Positions 2,965-13,536 of a DNA stretch of 25,051 bases are shown here, in pieces. Each line of letters begins with the position of its first letter. The stretch's first letter is position 1. This stretch comes from a virus, in IMG/VR virus record IMGVR_UViG_3300025771_000171, positions 1 to 25,051 of that record; one strand, written 5' to 3'. The notes beneath the pieces were generated by a model. That model was not told where the DNA came from and searched no databases. It saw only the letters and a program-made list of their open reading frames with translations. A program made the position numbers and the translations under genes.

Positions 2965-3795
2965 TTATCCTATAAAGTCTAATGGTGGAATTTCATAATA
3001 AGATGACATTTGCTCCATTATCATATCTATTTCTCTTTGAGCATCATCGTATAATTGTCTACCATTAAACTCAATACCTCCGGGAAGTTTAACACCTTGG
3101 AATTTAATTAAGTTTTGCCCCCATTGCCTCTTAATTAGAGACGTTAGATATTTCTTTAACCAAGAATCATTCCATACATTAGAATAATCGTTTGGATTTA
3201 ATGCACTGTAACAGTCAATAACCAAGTATTCTCCAACAACTAAACTGCTCCAGTCAATATCAAGATATAATCTATTTTGTCTTTTATTGAATCTTATTTG
3301 CTTTTGAGTTGTAAGTAAAAAGTCAATATCTTCCAGATATGTTTTAGTCATTGCATAAGTTAGCAGTTCTGTTGAACCCCAATAGTAAATATCATTTAAA
3401 AATAATTGATATTTCAAACTAAACATATTTCTAGAAATGTCATTAGATCCTTCAAATTGAAAAATTTTATTAATCCCTATAATATGATTTGGAATTTGAA
3501 GGAAATTGGCATTTTCAAAGAAGTTAAAAGTTTCACTTGTTGTTGATGTTGCCGAAGTTGTGGCAATTCCAACACCACCATTTTTTGCTCTACCTCTATC
3601 AACATCTTCTTGAGTAACTCTATATTTTAAATACGTTTGAATTACTCCATCAAAGTGCCTTTCTTGAAAAAATTGCACAGCATCATCGACAAGATCTTCT
3701 ATTTGTTCATCAGCAACATTAATTTCTAAAACTGGATGTCCCAGTTTCCTTTTACAATAATCTATTAGTTCTTGTCTTGATGATGGTTGTGCCAT
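2965..3795 (-). CDS. gp13: Neck protein (T4 gp13-like)
   Basis: gp13 binds the portal after packaging and, with gp14, completes the head so that a tail can attach. The 276-residue protein opens with MAQPSSRQELIDYCKRKLG, followed by P-V-L-E-I-N-V-A-D-E-Q-I-E-D-L-V-D-D-A and F-F-Q-E-R-H-F-D-G, the N-terminal blocks I recognise from marine T4-like gp13. Later blocks include Y-Q-L-F-L-N-D-I-Y-Y-W-G near 128-139, a D-C-Y-x-A-L-N-P region near 194-201, W-L-K-K-Y-L-T-S-L-I-K-R-Q-W-G-Q-N-L near 212-229 and L-P-G-G-I-E-F-N-G near 237-245. T4 gp13 is 309 residues, so the size fits. The gene follows the 74-residue gene by 34 bases and abuts gp14, reproducing T4 order 13-14-15-16. Confidence 0.95.
   Translation of the reverse strand: MAQPSSRQELIDYCKRKLGHPVLEINVADEQIEDLVDDAVQFFQERHFDGVIQTYLKYRVTQEDVDRGRAKNGGVGIATTSATSTTSETFNFFENANFLQIPNHIIGINKIFQFEGSNDISRNMFSLKYQLFLNDIYYWGSTELLTYAMTKTYLEDIDFLLTTQKQIRFNKRQNRLYLDIDWSSLVVGEYLVIDCYSALNPNDYSNVWNDSWLKKYLTSLIKRQWGQNLIKFQGVKLPGGIEFNGRQLYDDAQREIDMIMEQMSSYYEIPPLDFIG
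2968..2971 (-). promoter_or_regulatory. Shine-Dalgarno (AGGA) of gp14
   Basis: On the minus strand AGGA precedes the gp14 ATG with a five-base spacer. It lies within the last codons of gp13 and supports ATG at 2962 as the start. It is the clearest ribosome-binding site in the window; most other genes here lack one. Confidence 0.7.
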
Positions 3796-3829
3796 TATTC
3801 TTTACAGTTTATTTTTCCTATAATATCTA

Positions 3830-4054
3830 TCATTTCATGTTATTCATTAAAGAAGAAAGCATTGACTTTATTTCATCAATATTATTTTTAATTTCACTCA
3901 TTTCATTTTCTAGATTTTCAATTTTTTTAGAGTTGTTTTGCTTGCTTCTTTTCAAATTTAAATAATTTTGATATTCCAAGTAATTTGTGTTTAAAATTGC
4001 ATTTGTACTTTCATCCCTCACCAGGTTCACATCTTCTTTTACTTTCTTTTTCAT
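3830..4054 (-). CDS. 74-residue coiled-coil protein between baseplate and neck genes
   Basis: The protein has a lysine-rich N-terminus (MKKKVKED), a middle segment with the pattern R-D-x-x-T-N-A-I-L-N-T-N-x-x-E-Y, and a C-terminal helix. From residue 45 to 69 the hydrophobic residues fall in an exact heptad pattern: I45, L48, M52, I55, I59, I62, L66, L69. This gives about four heptads of predicted parallel coiled coil. The ATG shares one base with the TAA of the 819-residue gene (TAATG), a classic termination-reinitiation junction. I recall a similar small protein beside gp13 in other marine T4-like phages, without known function. T4 has the coiled-coil fibritin gene wac in this position, but this protein is far too short to be called fibritin. 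Confidence 0.85.
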   Translation of the reverse strand: MKKKVKEDVNLVRDESTNAILNTNYLEYQNYLNLKRSKQNNSKKIENLENEMSEIKNNIDEIKSMLSSLMNNMK

Positions 4055-6513
4055 TATGCAACAGCAATAACTCTTAAATCTTTAATTCTTGGTGGATATG
4101 CCTGATTTGTAGAAGTTCCAACAAGTTTTATGCTAAAATACCTAAAAGATTCTAGGTTGTTTTCAGTAAACTCATATTCTCTAAATGCTTCTAAAGGACT
4201 TTCATTTGTCAATAAGTCAACTTTCTGAACCTTTCTGTCAGGATTTCCATCAGACAAAGACTCATCTATTGTTTGACCAAGATTATTTAAATTATTGAAT
4301 CCTGGGAATGGAAAATATATTGGATCTTCATATGGATCCTTTTGAATTGAATAAAAGGCTCTCAAATCACTAAAAGTATTAACATAAGCAGTACAAAGAA
4401 GTTTTATAGAAGTTGCTGGAACTTCCAATGATATTATATTTGAAGCGTATGTAAATGCTGTTGGATCTTTTTCTAAACTAGAAACTCGATCATCTGTGGA
4501 ATAATTTTCTATTCTCTTATTAACTCTGTTTGAAGTTAAAATAAGTCCAACTCTATCTAAATCTACTGTCGGAGAAACATAAGAATCTCCACTAAACAAC
4601 TGTAAATTTAATGTTAATGATTTATTTCCAGGAAGATTATTCAATCCAACAGACTCATTAACTTTTGAAAATATAGCTCTTGGACTAGAAAGATAGTTGT
4701 TAGAATCTAAATTTATAGACTCAAATCCATTATCTTCAAAAGAAGTTTCCGATCCATCAATACTTCTTCCCGAAACTGTTCTAATAGAAGGTGTTATAGT
4801 TGTTCCACTAAGAGTCAGTGTTTGAACAGTTGGTCTTACAATATTATATTGAATATTTTGAGTTGCATTTATATCCTCACCTCCAGTTGACTTGGATTCT
4901 TTAATATAAAGTTTAGGGTCTATACTTCTATCAACACCAATCAAAGTAGATCCATCGCTATCTGTAGATCCTGTTCTCAGTTTTATGTAATAATAATCTA
5001 AACCTATTGGATCTGGTAAAGTAACTTCTTCCAATCTATGGGTTTTATTTATCCTTCTCAGAGAAATAGAGTTTAATTCATATTTTCCTACAACATCTCC
5101 TGAAAAGTGATCTTCAATTTTTGTTCCATCAATTCCTCTTGTTATTCCTGTAAGAGAAGTTGCAGTTGTACCATTATATCTGATGATCTCATCATCTATT
5201 ACAACATATCCTGGATTTGAAAAAGAAACTGGCAAATTTTCAAAGGTTCCATAATTTGTGGTTGAGTTTACAAACAACTCACCAGTAGAATTTTTATCAT
5301 AATCTGCAGTCAATGTTATTGGTTTTATATCACTTACAACGTTTGAAATAGAAACTCTGTCTGTTGGCGAATGGTTTCCATGATTTTTGTGATTTACTTT
5401 TATATGAAGTCCATCATTAATAATTGCCTTACCACCTGTTGGTATTATGATGTTGCTGCCCAAAGGTGTAGAAGTTCCCGAATTGTTTATATAGTTTAAA
5501 TTGTATCCAGCACCTTCTTTAAATTCTCCTTGAACATTATCCAATAAAAGTTCATTGGTTCCTGCAATACCGACCAAAGATAATCTCAGATTTCTTCCCA
5601 GTTTACTGCCACCAAGAGTTTCTACTGTAAGAACGTCTCCAGCAACATAACCACTACCGCCAGAAGTTATTGATGCTGCTATAGCTACTCCACTACTGTC
5701 AATTTCTATGTCTGCCGTAGCATCTGCACCAGTTCCTGTTAAAGAAACCAAACTTTCATTAAAGTATGTTGCTGGGCCAACATACCCTATTCCACCATTT
5801 ACAATATTTAAAGATCCTGTTGCTGATCCAGCAGAACCAACATAATCTCCAGATCCATCGGACAAATCTTGCTGAACAGTATTTCCAAGAGTTAGTCCAG
5901 AACCTGTCAATAATTGATCCAACTTTATTCTTATAAGTCTAGAATCCATTTCAAATGAGTTTGAAGTCAAGTTTGCAATTTGACTATTCCCTACACTTAA
6001 CTCTGGACTATAAAAATTAATGTCTCCAGTTGGTTGGGTGAAGTTTGCCCTATAAAGTTTAAATTTTAAATCTTGATATGGTTCTTCTATCCAACTTGAA
6101 GAATTTTGAGATTTGAAGAGTCCTCCATTGAGAGGTTGTTTATCAATAATAACTTGATTTTCGGAAGCAGTGTCAACTTGACCCATTTCTGCAACCCAAA
6201 GCAAATAACTATCAGAGTTTGAAGAAATAACTATGGAATGAAATTGATTGCCTGTTAGATATACTGGGGATGGAAATGTCACTCTTGTCGGAATTATTCC
6301 AAATTCGGTAGTTTCAATATCAGAAGGAGATACGACAACTTCACCAAAAGGATATACGGTTCTAGATGGTTGACCCAATTCCATGGGTCTCAATTGAACA
6401 GTTACTGGTAAATTATTGTCCTTTCTATAAAAATATAAATCAATAGAAGTCACAAACATTCCATTGCTATGTTCAACATAGAATGATTGTGCTAAGGGAT
6501 TTAATAATTTCAT
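4054..6513 (-). CDS. Virion structural protein, marine T4-like family (819 residues)
   Basis: This is probably a baseplate or peripheral tail component. Residues 1-115 form an N-terminal module (N-P-L-A-Q-S-F-Y-V-E, then P-V-T-V-Q-L-R-P-M at 36-44, Y-P-F-G-E-V near 54-59 and S-P-V-Y-L near 82-86). In many marine phages, as I recall, this module sits in large DUF4815-associated structural proteins. Residues 236-300 hold two GSGY repeats. Residues 366-398 carry an H-K-N-H-G-x-H stretch, 435-478 carry an RG-GT-H-G module, and S-L-R-R-I-N-K-T-H follows at 484-492. The C-terminus (Y-F-S-I-K-L-V-G-T-S-T-N-Q-A-Y-P-P-R) is a conserved ending I associate with cyanophage structural proteins. A late promoter motif lies just upstream, and translation is coupled to the 74-residue gene downstream. 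The precise role is unknown; by position it could correspond to T4 genes 10-12. Confidence 0.82.
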   Translation of the reverse strand: MKLLNPLAQSFYVEHSNGMFVTSIDLYFYRKDNNLPVTVQLRPMELGQPSRTVYPFGEVVVSPSDIETTEFGIIPTRVTFPSPVYLTGNQFHSIVISSNSDSYLLWVAEMGQVDTASENQVIIDKQPLNGGLFKSQNSSSWIEEPYQDLKFKLYRANFTQPTGDINFYSPELSVGNSQIANLTSNSFEMDSRLIRIKLDQLLTGSGLTLGNTVQQDLSDGSGDYVGSAGSATGSLNIVNGGIGYVGPATYFNESLVSLTGTGADATADIEIDSSGVAIAASITSGGSGYVAGDVLTVETLGGSKLGRNLRLSLVGIAGTNELLLDNVQGEFKEGAGYNLNYINNSGTSTPLGSNIIIPTGGKAIINDGLHIKVNHKNHGNHSPTDRVSISNVVSDIKPITLTADYDKNSTGELFVNSTTNYGTFENLPVSFSNPGYVVIDDEIIRYNGTTATSLTGITRGIDGTKIEDHFSGDVVGKYELNSISLRRINKTHRLEEVTLPDPIGLDYYYIKLRTGSTDSDGSTLIGVDRSIDPKLYIKESKSTGGEDINATQNIQYNIVRPTVQTLTLSGTTITPSIRTVSGRSIDGSETSFEDNGFESINLDSNNYLSSPRAIFSKVNESVGLNNLPGNKSLTLNLQLFSGDSYVSPTVDLDRVGLILTSNRVNKRIENYSTDDRVSSLEKDPTAFTYASNIISLEVPATSIKLLCTAYVNTFSDLRAFYSIQKDPYEDPIYFPFPGFNNLNNLGQTIDESLSDGNPDRKVQKVDLLTNESPLEAFREYEFTENNLESFRYFSIKLVGTSTNQAYPPRIKDLRVIAVA

Positions 6514-6531
6514 CTCTTATACTTTATTAAG

Positions 6532-6539
6532 TATTTATA
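6532..6539 (-). promoter_or_regulatory. T4-type late promoter TATAAATA upstream of the 819-residue gene
   Basis: The minus strand carries an exact TATAAATA, the T4 late promoter -10 element used with gp55-type sigma, in the 44-base gap between the DUF4815 gene and the 819-residue gene. Eighteen bases separate it from the ATG at 6513, leaving a short leader. This is the longest gap in the window. Chance matches are expected in AT-rich coding DNA but are unlikely within so little non-coding sequence. Confidence 0.65.
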
Positions 6540-6557
6540 TTAATGATATTAATTATT

Positions 6558-6965
6558 TCAAAGTCCAATAGTTTTTCCAAATTGGTTTGCTATTTTTTCA
6601 TCAGCTCTCTTTCTTTCATTCCTTCTGTTGTTATTGTTACGGTTTCCTGCCTTATTATTCTTTGAAGATCCAGTATTTCCGTATTTTATATTTGGTTGAG
6701 GATTAACTGCTTGTGCTCTATCAAACAGTTTTTGACCTCTAGCATTTGAATCTCCTTGCTTCACTTGTGCATTAATACCAGAGTCTGAAAGATAATTGTT
6801 TAATCTTTCCGCAGCAGGAGCTCCAATTTTTGGTCCAGCTCTGTTAATTGTAATCTCTTCTGGTTGTGGAGCTGGTTGTTGTGGTTCTGGTTGTGGTGTG
6901 TTTGGTCTTGCTGGTGACGAAGAAGATGGTGGAGAATATGGTGTGGGTGATGGAATAGTTCTTAT
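6558..6965 (-). other. Low-complexity Pro/Gln/Asn-rich C-terminal tail of the DUF4815 protein
   Basis: The last ~135 residues begin with a run of P and S (P-S-P-T-P-Y-S-P-P-S-S-S-S-P), pass through a P-Q-P-E-P-Q-Q-P-A-P-Q-P segment and end in N-N-K-A-G-N-R-N-N-N-N-R-R-N-E-R-K-R. The composition changes sharply from the beta-rich body of the protein. It is probably disordered, and positively charged at the end. It may be a flexible linker or an attachment arm, but no function can be read from it. Confidence 0.7.
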
Positions 6966-9900
6966 TACTGTGCTATTGACTAGTTCATTAGGACCTACTT
7001 CTTGTGCATCTTTGGTTTCTGTTACATCTTCTGTAACAACAGATGCATTTCTAGTGATCAATATATTTTCTTGAACAGTATTTACTTTTCCTTCGGAATA
7101 ATAATTTTCTTCTGCCGAACTAGTTGTAACACCTTCTATTAGAGAGTTTGTAGAACTATTTGATAATCTGAATACTTTAGTTCCTGCTTCAAATTTTGGA
7201 TTTACATCAGTATTTGGGTTGGGAATCCAAATTGAACCAAGTAAATCTCCCAATTGATCTGTAACTAAATCCAATGATTCTATTCTAGCAGTAGCACCGC
7301 TGCTTCTTCCTCTTAAAATCATACCAACTTCAAGATTTCCATAATATTCTCCCTGCGGTTTATTTGCTAATGAATAAGTATCTAAATTTAAAATTTCAGA
7401 AGAGGATGAGTAATTTTCAGATAAAGTTGCATTTCTGTTGTAAGGGTTTTTAATGAAAGTTTCGGTCGGCGAATCGTAAGGACCAAATTTATGATTCGAT
7501 TTTGCTACTCTGCAACTAAAAGACTTTCCAGAGATTAACGTGTTAATTCTTTTTGCTGCTGCTGATCCTATTTTATTTTTTCTATTTTTTGAGAATGCCA
7601 CAACCATTTCTCCAACTTGGAATGTGCCATTTATCATAGAAATTTTGACCAATTTTGGGAAAGTATATCCCAAAATATCAACACCATCAAAGAATGAATA
7701 CATTTGAGTAAATGGTTTCAATCTTCTTGCAGTAAACTCTACATTTCTAGATCTCAAATATGGAACAACTCTCGAATCTAAAACCTGGTCGCCAAAAGAA
7801 GTATTATCAAAAGTTTCTCTTACAAGTTTTGTTTTTCCCGTTCTTGTTGAGGATCCAGTCTTAGTTACTTGCTCATAATCTTCTCTAACTACTTGATTAC
7901 CAACTCTTACCTCTTCAGAATCTTTCTTAACAGATTGTCCAGTCCAAACAGTTTCCCAAGAATTCCAAACTGTTGGGGTGAATCCTGCTTGCTGATCAAA
8001 ACCTTCATCTTCTACTTCATTTATAGTCTTTACATAATCGCCTTCAACACTGACAGTCTTTGGCTCTGCTCTAATCTGATCTACCCAAACATCAGAAGAT
8101 GGGAAAAGTTCTATTGTTCCATTAAAGTTTGAAGAAGAATAAGCTGATACATTTGCAACTTGACTGGAATATGCTTGATCAATTTCTAAGACCTCTTCAT
8201 AATCTAAAAGTACTAACTGACCAACTCTCTTTATATTAGATCCAACCAAATCAGTTGCAAATTTTGCATCGGTTGTTTGACTTGGAGAAACTCCAATTCC
8301 AGACAAAGAATTTGAACCAAGCAAAAGGTCTACTTGTGTGGAATAGTGAGAAGGTCTCAATTCGGAATTTGAAATATCAATAGAATTTTTTGATCCAATT
8401 AATTTCTTTTGAGTTTTTGTTGTTGAAAAATCATCAACAAAAAATCCAGATTTGAATCTATTTAAACCATCAGCATCTATTATTTGTAAGTTTGAAGTGT
8501 TAGATTCTAATATTGAAAGTGATGTATAATACTCTAAGTTTTTGATTCTATCTTCAAGTTTTTTGATATCAGACATTTGATATCTCTTATAATCTCTTAA
8601 AGTAATCCTTGAATCTTTAATATCGCAAAGATAAGCTGGAAGATTTATTTGTGCAATTTCAATTGAACCTAAAATAGGTTGAGGTAATTGTGGATCTTCA
8701 GCAGGTTCTCCACTTGCAAGTTGGAATGTTCCATCCTTTGAAAGATAGATTTTATCTATTCTTGGCAAATAGAAAGAATAATTTAACAATGAAGATTCAT
8801 CAGAAGCCAAAATATATTCGGAAGAATTATTATTTTCGTCAATTGATCTTCCTAAAAATTCAAATGGCGATCTTTGATTTTCTGATACTGTGTAATTTGA
8901 AACTCTAGGACGAACATCTATAACGTCACTGTTTCTAACTCCATTTATCTTTGGAATATTGCAATATTCAAATTGATCATATGAGCTTGTAGTTACTATA
9001 TCACCAGAACTTGAAACTGATGAAGATTCGAAGATTATTTTTAATTTTCTTTTTGGTTCTTTCTTTGAAACTTTTCTTACTATTTTTGAATAATCGTATA
9101 TTGTATTCTTTTGTTGATTGTTAAATACATAACTATCAGTTATATCATTGTTTTCAGAGTCTATTGAAGAAACTGCTGCATTAACTCCAGAAGTTTTAAA
9201 TTTTAATATTTCTCCCGGAATAATAGAATTTGAGGATAATTTAGTGTAAAAAATCTCTAAATTAGAGTTTCTTTCTACAAAAACTCCTGTTGCATTACTT
9301 TCGGATCCAATAAATTCTTCTCCAAGTATTAAATCCAAAGTATTTCCTGAAGGACCATTCAATGATGAAAATACAATCTTTGGAATTGTTGGGTTATTAG
9401 TATCACTAGATTCATATACTCCAAGAACTCTAACTACATCAGCCTCATTTAAAGAAATTTCCTCATCTTGAACTCTTGTCCCATAAGGGTAATTTCCATA
9501 TTCTAAACCATCATTTAAAGTTGTTGAACCTATACCAGAAGATTCGTATTTTGATTTTGTTACAATTATAGAATTTATATTATTTTTTGATTTAACTTTT
9601 GAAGTTACATTTATTTTTCTAAGAGTAGCAATTAACTTTGCACTTCCATTGTTGCTTAAACCACTAATTGTTAATTGGGATGATCCAGAAGAAAATGTTA
9701 TTTTATCCTGAGTAAGTTCTTCTGTGGAACCATTTTCATTTACTAAACAATATCTTTCTTCATCAAAAGGCAAGAAAGTTTCGTTTGGATCTGCACTTAG
9801 AGTAAAAGATCCTCCCGAAACAGATACTGTATATTGCTTTCTTATTGTTAGATCGGATCCTGTAAAATCGACAGACTTTACATTTGGTTTTGGTAGTTTT

Positions 9901-11948
9901 GTATACAGGGTGTTATCTTCAGAACTTTGGAATTTTGATCCCAAAACTCTAAAATCCGATGGAGTTATGGTTGCAGTAGGAAGATTTCCATCACAAACAC
10001 CTGAAACAGAAGTAACTGGTTCCAGTGTTAAACTTGATGCTGTAACCGCAGTAACTTTTGAAAACGTTGGGACACTATTACCTGGATTTGTATATGCTAC
10101 AATTGAGTTTACCTTTACTGAGTTTGTAAACACTACATCAGCAGAAGTTACTGTACTAGTTCCCAAAGTTCCATCACTTATAGAAACAAATCCAAATTCT
10201 GATAAAGTTGTTTGCTTAATATCTGCAGTAAAAGTATAAGCAGAACCAACAATTCCATATAATGATTTTACATCACTTGATCCATAAGAATTTACTGATG
10301 TAGAAATCCTACTATTTTTTATTCCATCAAAGGTAAAACTTTCACCTATAGAAAATTTGCCGCTAATACTATATGCTGTTATGATGCCAGAATTGTTGAC
10401 ATCGTGTCTAATATAACCAATAGCACCACTAGAATTGCCTTTTATTTGTGTAGGAACACTTAAAGTGATGGGTTCATTTAAAGTTATCTCAGTATAAGTC
10501 TGAATATCATATAAAGATATATCCCATTGATTTGATTCTGGATTTAAAGTATCATATGATCCAGATTCTAGAGCAAAATCATAAACTCTCGCAATTCCAA
10601 TTTCTTTTCCGCCAGGAGAATTGCTGTTTGATCCTACTCTATCTAGATGTAGACTAACAGAGTAATCAGAAAATCCAACCTTTGGAGATCCATATACTCT
10701 ATTTAAAGTATATGTTGGTCCAGTTACGTAATTTACACTTTGGTTTTTTAAATTTTTTGTAGTTCTTGGTTTTTTAAAATCAATATATGTCGATCCTATC
10801 GTTTTTATTTCATACCCCATTACATAAGCTTTTGTTGGGGATATTACATAAGTACCCAAATTTTCACTAGGAGTATTTCCATTATATGTTTTTTTATCAC
10901 TTGTGAAAATTCCATTATTTCCCTTTAAATCATTTAAAGTTTCTCTTATTGATAAATTTGGAGACTTTACATAATAATTTCCAGATTCGTCAAAAGTCCT
11001 TCTTGCAAATTCATTTGCTAGTTCATTATATTGTGGGAGATTTCTTGATGTTATCTCCTCACCTTCTCTTATTTCGCTTATAGTAATGAAATCATTTGTC
11101 TCTAGATCATCTAATTCCTTTTTATCGAGATATGCAAATATTTGAAATCTATCTGCACCTGGTGCAGTATAATTTGAGAATCCATTTGCATTATCATTCA
11201 AAGAAGAATCTTCATCAGAATTTATAATTCTTTCTTGAATTCTTAAACCTACTTTATAATTGCTTATGCTGCTGTAAGGATCCAAAAGTATTGTGGATTC
11301 GCCAACATTTATAAAATATCCTCTAATAAAGAAAACCCCAGATTCTATTTTTGCCGAAGATGCACGTCCAGTAGAATTTTCATTCCTTGTAAGGCAAAAT
11401 CCTTCACCCGCAGATAAAAATCTTTGTATTCCATCTACAATTATTGCACCTTCTTCATCATCATCGCCCAAATTTGGTTGATCGCTTTCTACTTCTAAAA
11501 CTTCACCATCTAAAAATCTTTCACTTTTATTGGCATCTGTTCCTGGACTTAAATATTTTACATATATTGTTGCATTTCCAATAAAAGAATTTTGTTTAGA
11601 AAGAGAAAAAATAATCTCAGCTCTTACTCCACTAGTTCTTCCTACTATTACTGCACCATTTAAAAAGTTCAAATATATTTGAACATCAACCCCAAAATAA
11701 TCATTCTCTAAAATTACATACTCTAATCTGTTATTATAAGATAATTCTCCGCCAAGAACTTTCGATCCATCAGTAAAAATATGAGTCCCAAATCTTTCAA
11801 TCTGAGACTGTAAGATTGACTGTAAAGTAGTCAGTTCCCTAGCTTGAACAGGATAACCTGGTTTAAACAATACTCTATGAAAATCCTTATCATTAGGATC
11901 ATAATCGTCAAAATATGGATATACGTTTAAGTTAGTTTCCTGTGGCAT
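6558..11948 (-). CDS. DUF4815-type giant virion structural protein (1796 residues)
   Basis: The N-terminus (N-V-Y-P-Y-F-D-D-Y-D-P, then F-K-P-G-Y-P-V-Q-A-R-E-L-T and L-Q-S-I-L-Q-S-Q-I-E-R-F-G-x-H-I-F) is the DUF4815 signature of large tail or baseplate proteins in marine T4-like phages. Further on are G-x-x-SGA modules (near 92-155, 485-536, 867-915 and 1537-1595). A short coiled-coil block, I-K-K-L-E-D-R-I-K-N-L-E-Y-Y-T-S-L-S, lies near 1126. Tryptophan-rich and V-P-Y-L-R-S-R-N-V-E-F-T-A blocks lie near 1320 and 1390-1410. Residues after about 1660 are low-complexity, first rich in Pro, Ser and Gln, then in Asn, Arg and Lys, and are probably disordered. The gene lies ten bases after gp8 with no clear Shine-Dalgarno, so it is likely co-transcribed and perhaps coupled. 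The family is recognised; its exact place in the virion is not established here. Confidence 0.87.
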   Translation of the reverse strand: MPQETNLNVYPYFDDYDPNDKDFHRVLFKPGYPVQARELTTLQSILQSQIERFGTHIFTDGSKVLGGELSYNNRLEYVILENDYFGVDVQIYLNFLNGAVIVGRTSGVRAEIIFSLSKQNSFIGNATIYVKYLSPGTDANKSERFLDGEVLEVESDQPNLGDDDEEGAIIVDGIQRFLSAGEGFCLTRNENSTGRASSAKIESGVFFIRGYFINVGESTILLDPYSSISNYKVGLRIQERIINSDEDSSLNDNANGFSNYTAPGADRFQIFAYLDKKELDDLETNDFITISEIREGEEITSRNLPQYNELANEFARRTFDESGNYYVKSPNLSIRETLNDLKGNNGIFTSDKKTYNGNTPSENLGTYVISPTKAYVMGYEIKTIGSTYIDFKKPRTTKNLKNQSVNYVTGPTYTLNRVYGSPKVGFSDYSVSLHLDRVGSNSNSPGGKEIGIARVYDFALESGSYDTLNPESNQWDISLYDIQTYTEITLNEPITLSVPTQIKGNSSGAIGYIRHDVNNSGIITAYSISGKFSIGESFTFDGIKNSRISTSVNSYGSSDVKSLYGIVGSAYTFTADIKQTTLSEFGFVSISDGTLGTSTVTSADVVFTNSVKVNSIVAYTNPGNSVPTFSKVTAVTASSLTLEPVTSVSGVCDGNLPTATITPSDFRVLGSKFQSSEDNTLYTKLPKPNVKSVDFTGSDLTIRKQYTVSVSGGSFTLSADPNETFLPFDEERYCLVNENGSTEELTQDKITFSSGSSQLTISGLSNNGSAKLIATLRKINVTSKVKSKNNINSIIVTKSKYESSGIGSTTLNDGLEYGNYPYGTRVQDEEISLNEADVVRVLGVYESSDTNNPTIPKIVFSSLNGPSGNTLDLILGEEFIGSESNATGVFVERNSNLEIFYTKLSSNSIIPGEILKFKTSGVNAAVSSIDSENNDITDSYVFNNQQKNTIYDYSKIVRKVSKKEPKRKLKIIFESSSVSSSGDIVTTSSYDQFEYCNIPKINGVRNSDVIDVRPRVSNYTVSENQRSPFEFLGRSIDENNNSSEYILASDESSLLNYSFYLPRIDKIYLSKDGTFQLASGEPAEDPQLPQPILGSIEIAQINLPAYLCDIKDSRITLRDYKRYQMSDIKKLEDRIKNLEYYTSLSILESNTSNLQIIDADGLNRFKSGFFVDDFSTTKTQKKLIGSKNSIDISNSELRPSHYSTQVDLLLGSNSLSGIGVSPSQTTDAKFATDLVGSNIKRVGQLVLLDYEEVLEIDQAYSSQVANVSAYSSSNFNGTIELFPSSDVWVDQIRAEPKTVSVEGDYVKTINEVEDEGFDQQAGFTPTVWNSWETVWTGQSVKKDSEEVRVGNQVVREDYEQVTKTGSSTRTGKTKLVRETFDNTSFGDQVLDSRVVPYLRSRNVEFTARRLKPFTQMYSFFDGVDILGYTFPKLVKISMINGTFQVGEMVVAFSKNRKNKIGSAAAKRINTLISGKSFSCRVAKSNHKFGPYDSPTETFIKNPYNRNATLSENYSSSSEILNLDTYSLANKPQGEYYGNLEVGMILRGRSSGATARIESLDLVTDQLGDLLGSIWIPNPNTDVNPKFEAGTKVFRLSNSSTNSLIEGVTTSSAEENYYSEGKVNTVQENILITRNASVVTEDVTETKDAQEVGPNELVNSTVIRTIPSPTPYSPPSSSSPARPNTPQPEPQQPAPQPEEITINRAGPKIGAPAAERLNNYLSDSGINAQVKQGDSNARGQKLFDRAQAVNPQPNIKYGNTGSSKNNKAGNRNNNNRRNERKRADEKIANQFGKTIGL

Positions 11949-11958
11949 GATTTTTTAC

Positions 11959-13536
11959 TTAAAATTGTAAAATAACCTTAATATCTTCTTTTTGATTGGC
12001 AGATCTTGTAATAGATGGTCTATTATCAACGTAAATAATGTCTCCTGAATATTTTTCTACTTCAGGATCAGATAAGCCAAAATCAAATTCTTGTCCCAGA
12101 TTATAGGTAGTCGTATTATTTATGACCGTAGTCAAACCACTAAATTCAGTATCAATACCTAGTGTCTTAGTTCCTCCAAGAATTTCTATCGATCCCCCTA
12201 CTTCAGGAGTAGATGTAAAGGAATATGCATTATATCCATATTCGGGAGTTTGTGTGCTTTGAATTAATGAAGCAGTATTGAATCCAGCTAATGCTCTATC
12301 TTGCCAATATTTAAGAACGCCAGTGTTGTTATCATATGAAATAACTCTTCCTACCGCTGTTTTTCCTGTTCCGATAGTTTGAGTTATTTGTGAATTTTGT
12401 GTAAATGTAGTATTTTGAAAATCACTAGAATTTAATACACCTTTTAATTTTAATGCTTTTGTCCCACTAATTTTATTGTCTGATAGTAAATCTTCCGAAC
12501 CCGGTTTTCTTGGATTTTTTACTATTCCAATTCTTGCTACTTTATTTCCAGTAATAAAGTTTGGATTTTGATCATCATTTTCAATTCTACTATACAATAA
12601 AACACTAAATGCGCCAAGTTCCCTGTAAATATCACTTCCATGTCCACCTGAAGGAGGAATGATTACATTAAAAACCGGAGATGTTGAAGAACTATCTACC
12701 AGAAGACCACCAGAACTTAAATCTAATGATCCAAAAGTATATCCAGATCCTCCAGAAGTAACTTCAACAGATTCTACTGTAAAATCTTCACCCACAACAA
12801 CAGTAGCTTTTCCCCCAGTTCCATCCCCAACAATATCAATATCAGAATAAGTTTGAGGTAGATTTCCAAGACCACTTCCTCTATTTGAAATGGTAATCAT
12901 TTTTAATTGCCCACTAGTTGCTGCATTTTCTCTTACAGCAGCATATTGGGAATTAGTTTTCCAATCTGATGGGACAGGTATGTAATTAGCCGTTTCAAAT
13001 TTTACAATATCATTTGGATTTATTGTGTAAAGATACTTCCAAATATATCCATCCCCACTGTCACCTGCTGGTCTTGGTTCAAGATCTGTAAAATTTGGTT
13101 CATCTAATGAGGGTCTACCTTCTGGATTTTCTGGATTTACTCCATTATTTAAACAAATATAAACTCTATAATTTGCATTTAACACATAATAATTCGAACT
13201 ATAAAGAGAAGATTTATTTGATGTCGTTGGTCTATCTCTACTTATATCATTTTTGTACATGTCATAAGTAGTTCCAGAAGTCCATTTTATTTTTCGGATA
13301 ACCTTCCTAACATCATCAGAGTTTATTTTTGTTAATCCGACAATAGTGTCCCATATATCATTACTATAATTAAATGAGTCTATTGGTGCTAGTGGAGAAT
13401 TATCCCAATTTGGATCATAATCCGAAGAATTTGTCAATCCAATGAAGGAATAATAACAAAAATTTGTAGATCCTACGGAAGATATAAAGGTATCTGAATT
13501 TAAAATCCTAAATTGGTCAGTAATAATTGCAGACAT
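11959..13536 (-). CDS. gp8: Baseplate wedge protein (T4 gp8-like)
   Basis: gp8 is a core wedge component of the contractile-tail baseplate; in T4 it pairs with gp7, gp10 and gp53 in wedge assembly. The N-terminus (MSAIITDQFRILNSDTF) and the blocks D-x-I-V-G-L-x-K-I-x-S-D-D-V-R-K-V-I-R-K at 63-82, Y-Y-V-L-N-A-N-Y-R-V-Y-I-C-L-N-N-G at 116-132, the G-D-G-Y-I-W-K-Y-L-Y-T-I segment at 161-172 and the ending S-I-T-R-S-A-N-Q-K-E-D-I-K-V-I-L-Q-F match marine gp8. At 525 residues it is longer than T4 gp8 (334). Part of the excess is at about 213-275, which contains one diverged and one canonical GSGY unit. A late promoter motif lies in the short gap upstream, and the next gene follows after ten bases. 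Confidence 0.93.
   Translation of the reverse strand: MSAIITDQFRILNSDTFISSVGSTNFCYYSFIGLTNSSDYDPNWDNSPLAPIDSFNYSNDIWDTIVGLTKINSDDVRKVIRKIKWTSGTTYDMYKNDISRDRPTTSNKSSLYSSNYYVLNANYRVYICLNNGVNPENPEGRPSLDEPNFTDLEPRPAGDSGDGYIWKYLYTINPNDIVKFETANYIPVPSDWKTNSQYAAVRENAATSGQLKMITISNRGSGLGNLPQTYSDIDIVGDGTGGKATVVVGEDFTVESVEVTSGGSGYTFGSLDLSSGGLLVDSSSTSPVFNVIIPPSGGHGSDIYRELGAFSVLLYSRIENDDQNPNFITGNKVARIGIVKNPRKPGSEDLLSDNKISGTKALKLKGVLNSSDFQNTTFTQNSQITQTIGTGKTAVGRVISYDNNTGVLKYWQDRALAGFNTASLIQSTQTPEYGYNAYSFTSTPEVGGSIEILGGTKTLGIDTEFSGLTTVINNTTTYNLGQEFDFGLSDPEVEKYSGDIIYVDNRPSITRSANQKEDIKVILQF

Follow-up and report, generated by a model that had tools for sequence, protein, structure and literature searches.

A small coiled-coil protein that travels with the DUF4815 baseplate gene is likelier to belong to the baseplate or help assemble it than to be a neck whisker

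The 25,051-nt stretch of viral DNA analysed here (the window; IMG/VR record IMGVR_UViG_3300025771_000171) carries on its minus strand, at 3830..4054, an ORF with an ATG start for a protein of 74 aa with a C-terminal coiled coil. Since T4 also has its PF07921 match just before gp13, the small ORF shares the slot of T4 wac, as a first-pass annotation of the window had pointed out. This raises the question whether the small protein is a reduced neck whisker or serves another part of the virion. The gene order of the window is wedge, gp8, DUF4815, small protein, gp13, gp14, gp15, gp16. The gene of a gp8-like baseplate wedge subunit (11959..13536, minus strand, phrog_438) precedes the DUF4815 coding region, of which the 819-aa C-terminal part (4054..6513, minus strand) ends at the small gene. 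The TAATG coupling that had been noted between these two genes was seen at 4052..4056 (minus strand), where the TAA of the 819-aa ORF overlaps the ATG of the small ORF. The position directly before gp13 was found as described too, the next ORF downstream (2965..3795, minus strand) being a gp13-like head-tail adaptor Ad2 that matches phrog_211 at 1.9e-48 after a gap of 34 bp. The gp14-like protein that follows (1586-2962) is extended at its C terminus; within the extension, residues ~170-440 match families of baseplate-wedge and other virion proteins. The interval 2965-4054 lacks a host-recognition (fibre) cluster between VrlC and gp13/gp14; in cyano- and pelagimyophages this cluster sits between VrlC and gp14, as stated in a section of PMC7029224.

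Judged by its sequence, the gene belongs to an already catalogued family, phrog_473 / T4-GC112. The 74-aa protein matches phrog_473 at 4.4e-18 over its whole length (residues 2-72 on 3-73 of 75), which rules out an orphan gene, and all 48 aligned sequences, window included, match the same profile. In marine T4-like phages the family is annotated as 'virion structural protein', while its PHROG category 'head and packaging' was kept out of the evidence. With tblastn at E<=1, relatives were detected in 215 phage records, mostly of cyanophages, and the scan of bacterial genomes gave one relative, on a MAG contig and there too behind a phrog_358 protein. Each of the 8 phage genomes scanned holds a single convincing copy, a second match in Melnitz reaching 13.9 bits and containing an internal stop. 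The label T4-GC112 appears in the records of S-PM2 (S-PM2p088), S-SM1 (SSM1_107), P-SSM2 (PSSM2_116) and P-HM2. The family, which includes S-PM2p088, SSM1_107, PSSM2_116 and HTVC008M gp058, shares with the window protein its motif, its coil and the place behind the DUF4815 gene. Most of the isolates examined have other genes between the small gene and gp13, whereas in the window there is the short gap alone and the DUF4815 gene is split. S-RSM4 holds a homologue at 110429-110626 on the minus strand (locus L082), for which its record has no annotated gene. In the open literature searched, no two of the terms T4-GC112, S-PM2p088, phrog_473 and VrlC are mentioned together, and DUF4815 was found together with baseplate only in a Wolbachia paper.

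For the conservation analysis, the best 80 of the 101 relatives from a scan of viral contigs were kept, corresponding to 79 loci. The 78 loci with a start, together with the window, gave 53 distinct proteins; the cut-off locus L054 was dropped. In alignment A1 (48 rows, window included) nine columns are invariant, namely L11, R13, D14, I20, N22, T23, Y28, Y31 and K63, and eight of these lie within residues 11-31. The mean column entropy is 0.87 bits for residues 11-31, 2.22 for 32-43 and 1.45 for 44-69; in the last segment the a/d positions have 1.10 and the others 1.61. The best-conserved part of the protein is thus the N-terminal hairpin motif around L-x-R-D-x-x-T-N-A-I-L-N-T-N, and the alignment, the entropy and the predicted structure delimit this module as residues 9-31 (3962..4030, minus strand), where the motif continues to Y..Y. 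Of 21 close pairs, six had saturated dS, and the remaining 15 gave a dN/dS of 0.03-0.24; together with the conservation this rules out a chance ORF. AlphaFold2, run on the alignment, placed strands at residues 2-5, 8-14 and 19-21 and a single helix at 25-73 (pLDDT 85, pTM 0.49), so that the predicted fold is a hairpin plus a helix. Foldseek and VIA found no useful match for this model in the PDB (best E 3.2; Z 2.8), and in BFVD there was no match at or below 0.001. The first 20 BFVD matches listed are proteins of 65-81 aa, of which the 15 that are named are all from phages. When PDB sequences were searched with the profile, the matches were coils, several of them trimeric by name (best E 0.0063); no homology was read from them.

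The exact a/d ladder that the first-pass annotation had described was confirmed, with I45, L48, M52, I55, I59, I62, L66 and L69 spaced 3-4-3-4-3-4-3. In the single sequence such a ladder is out of the ordinary, yet not decisive: an eight-step ILMVF ladder arose in 125 of 200,000 composition-preserving shuffles of the 74-aa protein, and it occurs in 3 of the 26 window ORFs of at least 60 aa, the other two being a protein of 1424 aa and an ORF that runs antisense to its gene. What makes the ladder convincing is that its register is conserved across relatives. Among the 53 distinct sequences from the best 80 of 101 relatives, window included, all 424 core cells (53 x 8) are I, L, M, V or F, the eight core positions thus being hydrophobic in every sequence. 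As a control in the same sequences, a shift of the ladder by one or two residues left 12-61 of 424 cells hydrophobic; a shift by three residues, where the register is partly shared, left 215 of 424 and 265 of 417.

The putative coiled coil spans residues 44-73 (3836..3925, minus strand) and starts with a trimerisation-type motif, (K/R)44-h-x-x-h-E49, in g-a-d-e register. E is present at the last position of this motif in 52 of the 53 sequences. The complete RhxxhE, which a passage of PMC5940361 describes as a trimerisation motif in this register (citing Kammerer 2005), occurs in the 26 of 53 that have R at the first position, and K replaces R in the other 27. Since the window protein itself carries K at position 44, its coil is only likely to form a trimer, as judged from this motif. 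The number of residues from Y28 to K63 was compared in 20 diverse members, window included: it is equal in 11, shorter by exactly seven in four and different in another way in five. A shortening by exactly seven fits a coil that has lost one heptad.

T4 fibritin is a long, segmented, trimeric coiled coil. The window protein has in common with it a coiled coil and the slot before gp13, but T4 fibritin is a 486-residue ORF with Fibritin_C, while the window protein has 74 aa, an N-terminal hairpin and no Fibritin_C match. Instead of a long segmented coil it has one helix and one coil only. The 74-aa protein has no Pfam match over cut-off, and no fibritin family is among the 15 Pfam matches at E<=1. 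PF07921 Fibritin_C exceeded its cut-off in T4 only (1 of 16 and 1 of 22 records). The 36 other records, all negative at this cut-off, comprise 15 phages, S-SKS1, which is presumably the St Kilda cyanophage, and 20 viral contigs of relatives, the absence from the contigs being weak because they are fragments. Sub-threshold Fibritin_C matches were seen in S-CREM2 (0.014) and S-SM1 (0.068), elsewhere in those genomes. The agreement with T4 therefore concerns the slot, given the Fibritin_C match just before gp13, while the gene content differs. Part of the text of PMC2984593 describes cyanomyoviruses as lacking wac, g10, g11 and g12.

The two flanks of the small gene differ in how constant they are. 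In the 79 loci from the best 80 of 101 relatives, the small gene starts at most 7 bp from the stop of the 819-aa homologue in all 76 that could be tested, the remaining three contigs beginning within 111 bp of the small gene. Within 571 bp downstream gp13 is found in 73 of the 79 contigs, and the other six have less than 400 bp of flank. Both neighbours are thus constant in the window phage's own group, as the counts fall short by contig ends only. Among named records, 20 of which gave both coordinates, the small gene lies 2-38 bp from the C-terminal DUF4815 match in 19; these counts are not independent, because several records are strains of one phage. The exception is P-SSM5, with 789 bp in between. 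In the P-SSM2 record two small ORFs stand between the DUF4815 gene and the small gene. The distance to gp13, available for six records, is 617 bp in one of them and ranges from 5.7 to 6.5 kb in the other five. In Pseudoalteromonas phage XG4 (locus L090) the small gene is placed between a split DUF4815 pair (1038 + 801 aa) and the large terminase, and in Sinorhizobium phage phiM9 it (a member at 1.5e-6) lies behind VrlC with DUF4815, gp13 being upstream of gp8. The small gene also stands behind a DUF4815 or phrog_358 protein in Stenotrophomonas Ps15, Vibrio K476, Kuja, S-CREM2, HTVC008M and Melnitz. From XG4, phiM9 and the distances in the isolates it follows that the constant partner is the DUF4815 protein and not gp13. 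Conservation next to gp13, which the first-pass annotation had proposed to look for in other phages, therefore holds in the window phage's own group and breaks down in XG4, phiM9 and most of the cyanophages examined, where other genes separate the two.

These neighbourhoods bear on the reading of the first-pass annotation, a minimal neck whisker or neck-tail linker that replaces fibritin. The T4-like slot, the coil and the proximity of gp13 in the contigs (73 of 79, from the best 80 of 101 relatives) speak for it, as do partial accounts according to which the neck whiskers of phi812 are unassigned (PMC12886913) and a St Kilda cyanophage has whiskers (PMC2984593). However, the small gene tracks DUF4815 and not gp13, the protein has no Pfam match over cut-off, and Fibritin_C was detected neither in S-SKS1 nor in the 20 fragmentary contigs of relatives. 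Likeness to fibritin and a link to the neck thus found no support, and we regard this reading as very improbable. Because the family travels with a giant tail-baseplate protein, a role in the baseplate, whether as one of its parts or as a helper in its assembly, is more likely for the 74-aa protein than one as a neck whisker.

Two further observations concern the space between the small gene and its downstream neighbour. In five related contigs (L014, L018, L048, L069 and L074) a small ORF of ~45-64 aa is present between the coil gene and gp13; the one in L014 is phrog_27081 by scan, and the 34-bp gap of the window leaves no space for such an ORF. A second conserved, helical-looking small protein is encoded directly next in S-SM1 (L086, 8757-8984), Syn9 (L088, 12188-12409) and S-TIM4 (L093, 12916-13131). 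The S-SM1 copy is phrog_580 by scan, and a large structural or fibre gene comes next.

The upstream partner is one phrog_358 protein in two parts, the 1796-aa ORF (6558..11948, minus strand) corresponding to positions 1-1410 of the profile and the 819-aa ORF to positions 1422-2055. PF16075 DUF4815 is carried by the 1796-aa part. VrlC is described in a part of PMC7029224 as integral to two-layered baseplates. Both parts match PDB chain 9euf_0, a 'DUF4815 domain-containing protein / ORF65', the 819-aa part with an E of 2.8e-19. The best structural matches of the model predicted for the 819-aa part (pLDDT 82) are phi812 baseplate chains, with Foldseek values of 3.3e-10 to 2.2e-8 against three of them. 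VIA aligned this model to residues 580-1151 of 9euf_0 with Z 18.9 (351 residues, rmsd 3.5 A), and to two other phi812 chains with Z 22.4 and 22.1 at rmsd 15.1. The partner is thus a homologue of a solved phi812 baseplate chain, which it matches both in sequence and in predicted fold. In the window (4054-11948) the DUF4815 gene is split just before a PLAQSF motif, and among the 49 of 79 contigs (best 80 of 101 relatives) that show both parts it is split in 12 and fused in 37. The DUF4815 protein of P-SSM2 is unsplit and has 2506 aa.

We propose that the 74-aa protein is a dedicated small partner of the DUF4815/'VrlC' protein. Its C-terminal helix would self-associate, probably as a trimer, into a short coiled coil of parallel helices, while the conserved N-terminal hairpin would dock on the DUF4815 protein, which would be made from the stop-start coupled cistron just upstream. 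In this way the small protein, presumably as a part of the virion, could hold DUF4815 chains of the baseplate together as a clamp or bridge. The gene pairing as such is an association and not a contact. The clamp agrees with the name 'virion structural protein' that T4-GC112 has in S-PM2, S-SM1, P-SSM2 and P-HM2. This name probably stems from Sullivan et al., who, as far as an extract of PMC3037559 tells, flagged proteins that had been found in virions of S-SM1, S-PM2 or Syn9, along with the orthologues of these proteins. Against the clamp stand the pTM of only 0.49 and the 5 of 20 diverse members that differ in length by neither zero nor seven residues.

Other virion data would fit a protein that leaves before the particle is complete. 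In this alternative, coil and hairpin would hold the nascent C-terminal domain of the DUF4815 protein until it has oligomerised or entered the wedge, and the stop-start coupling to the DUF4815 cistron speaks for a non-virion assembly chaperone of this kind. In agreement with this, Table 3 of the S-CREM2 virion proteome, as it appears in a portion of PMC10665884, gives the DUF4815 protein gp124 with 450 peptides and does not list the relative gp125. Also against the clamp, gp105 and gp108 are labelled structural in the record of Syn9, and the relative gp106 is not. For the analogous phi812 gp124 no chain was found in the PDB at E<=1, although the DUF4815 protein, gp125 and gp126/ORF67 each have one; their PDB entry also contains an ORF68 chain of 458 aa. 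However, mass spectrometry and map building can easily overlook small proteins, and the label 'virion structural protein' that several cyanophage records carry is at odds with a chaperone. For Sajous1, an excerpt of PMC10892097 reports two spectra for a 'gp142 putative virion structural protein'; these were not counted, because in GenBank the relative is gp141 and gp142 is a 113-aa hypothetical protein. Since the virion evidence is mixed, we give the clamp an even chance and consider the chaperone possible, although on the unlikely side.

The coil could also receive a host-recognition fibre while the hairpin binds DUF4815, so that the protein would be an adaptor between baseplate and fibres. 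Fibre or large structural genes come next, or after small ORFs, in P-HM2, Syn9, S-SM1, S-TIM4, S-PM2 and S-RSM4, and the host-recognition cluster starts after VrlC in the account given by a part of PMC7029224. In the window group, Ps15 and K476, however, gp13 is next or nearly next with no intervening fibre gene, and in XG4 the large terminase is the next gene, so that we consider an adaptor improbable. The clamp on the DUF4815 protein remains our preferred reading, and it places a small uncharacterised family of abundant ocean phages, formerly assigned to the neck, at a testable position on the DUF4815 baseplate protein.

Proteins of similar size are encoded behind DUF4815 genes in other phages. 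Members of phrog_4322, a Kuttervirus 'virion structural protein' (BSP101 gp203, Sajous1 gp141), lie directly behind the VrlC/DUF4815 gene. BSP101 gp203 matches phrog_473 at 2.9e-5, and Kuja_1820 matches both phrog_473 and phrog_4322, while the A1 profile did not find BSP101 at E<=0.1. The motif of phrog_4322 is degenerate and lacks R-D, whereas the window family has it. In Herelleviridae, a 52-73-aa protein is present directly behind the DUF4815 gene in all seven phages looked at (phi812, Twort, phiSA_BS2, SBSphiJ2, Goe24, Bp8p-T and LP-064). These proteins, exemplified by phi812 gp124 and Twort ORF232 and assigned to phrog_1074 by a scan of phi812 gp124, start at an RD-x-x-S-x-A motif, which is followed by a charged stretch that looks helix-like from the sequence. 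HHalign gave the Herelleviridae set (A4) 88% over 25 columns against a diverse set of 20 (A3) and 33% against the marine set alone. On these profile comparisons we take the phrog_1074 proteins as likely, though short of proven, homologues of the window family.

If they are true relatives, phages of Staphylococcus, Listeria, Bacillus, Salmonella and cyanobacteria would all pair one small factor with a baseplate protein, and what is missing from a solved baseplate would become a direct question. Tentatively, and with a little less than an even chance, we suggest a two-gene module of the DUF4815 protein and an 'RD-hairpin and coil' partner that extends across Kyanoviridae, Ackermannviridae, Pootjesviridae, Menderavirus and Herelleviridae, with the partner overlooked even in the solved phi812 baseplate (gp124). 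The partner would then be a general factor, transient or flexible, in the assembly of DUF4815-type baseplates. For Staphylococcus phage 812 itself, record KJ206559 splits the DUF4815 protein into two annotated ORFs, gp122 and gp123 (locus L099, 3641-7098); the phi812 DUF4815 chain in the PDB is one protein of 1152 aa.
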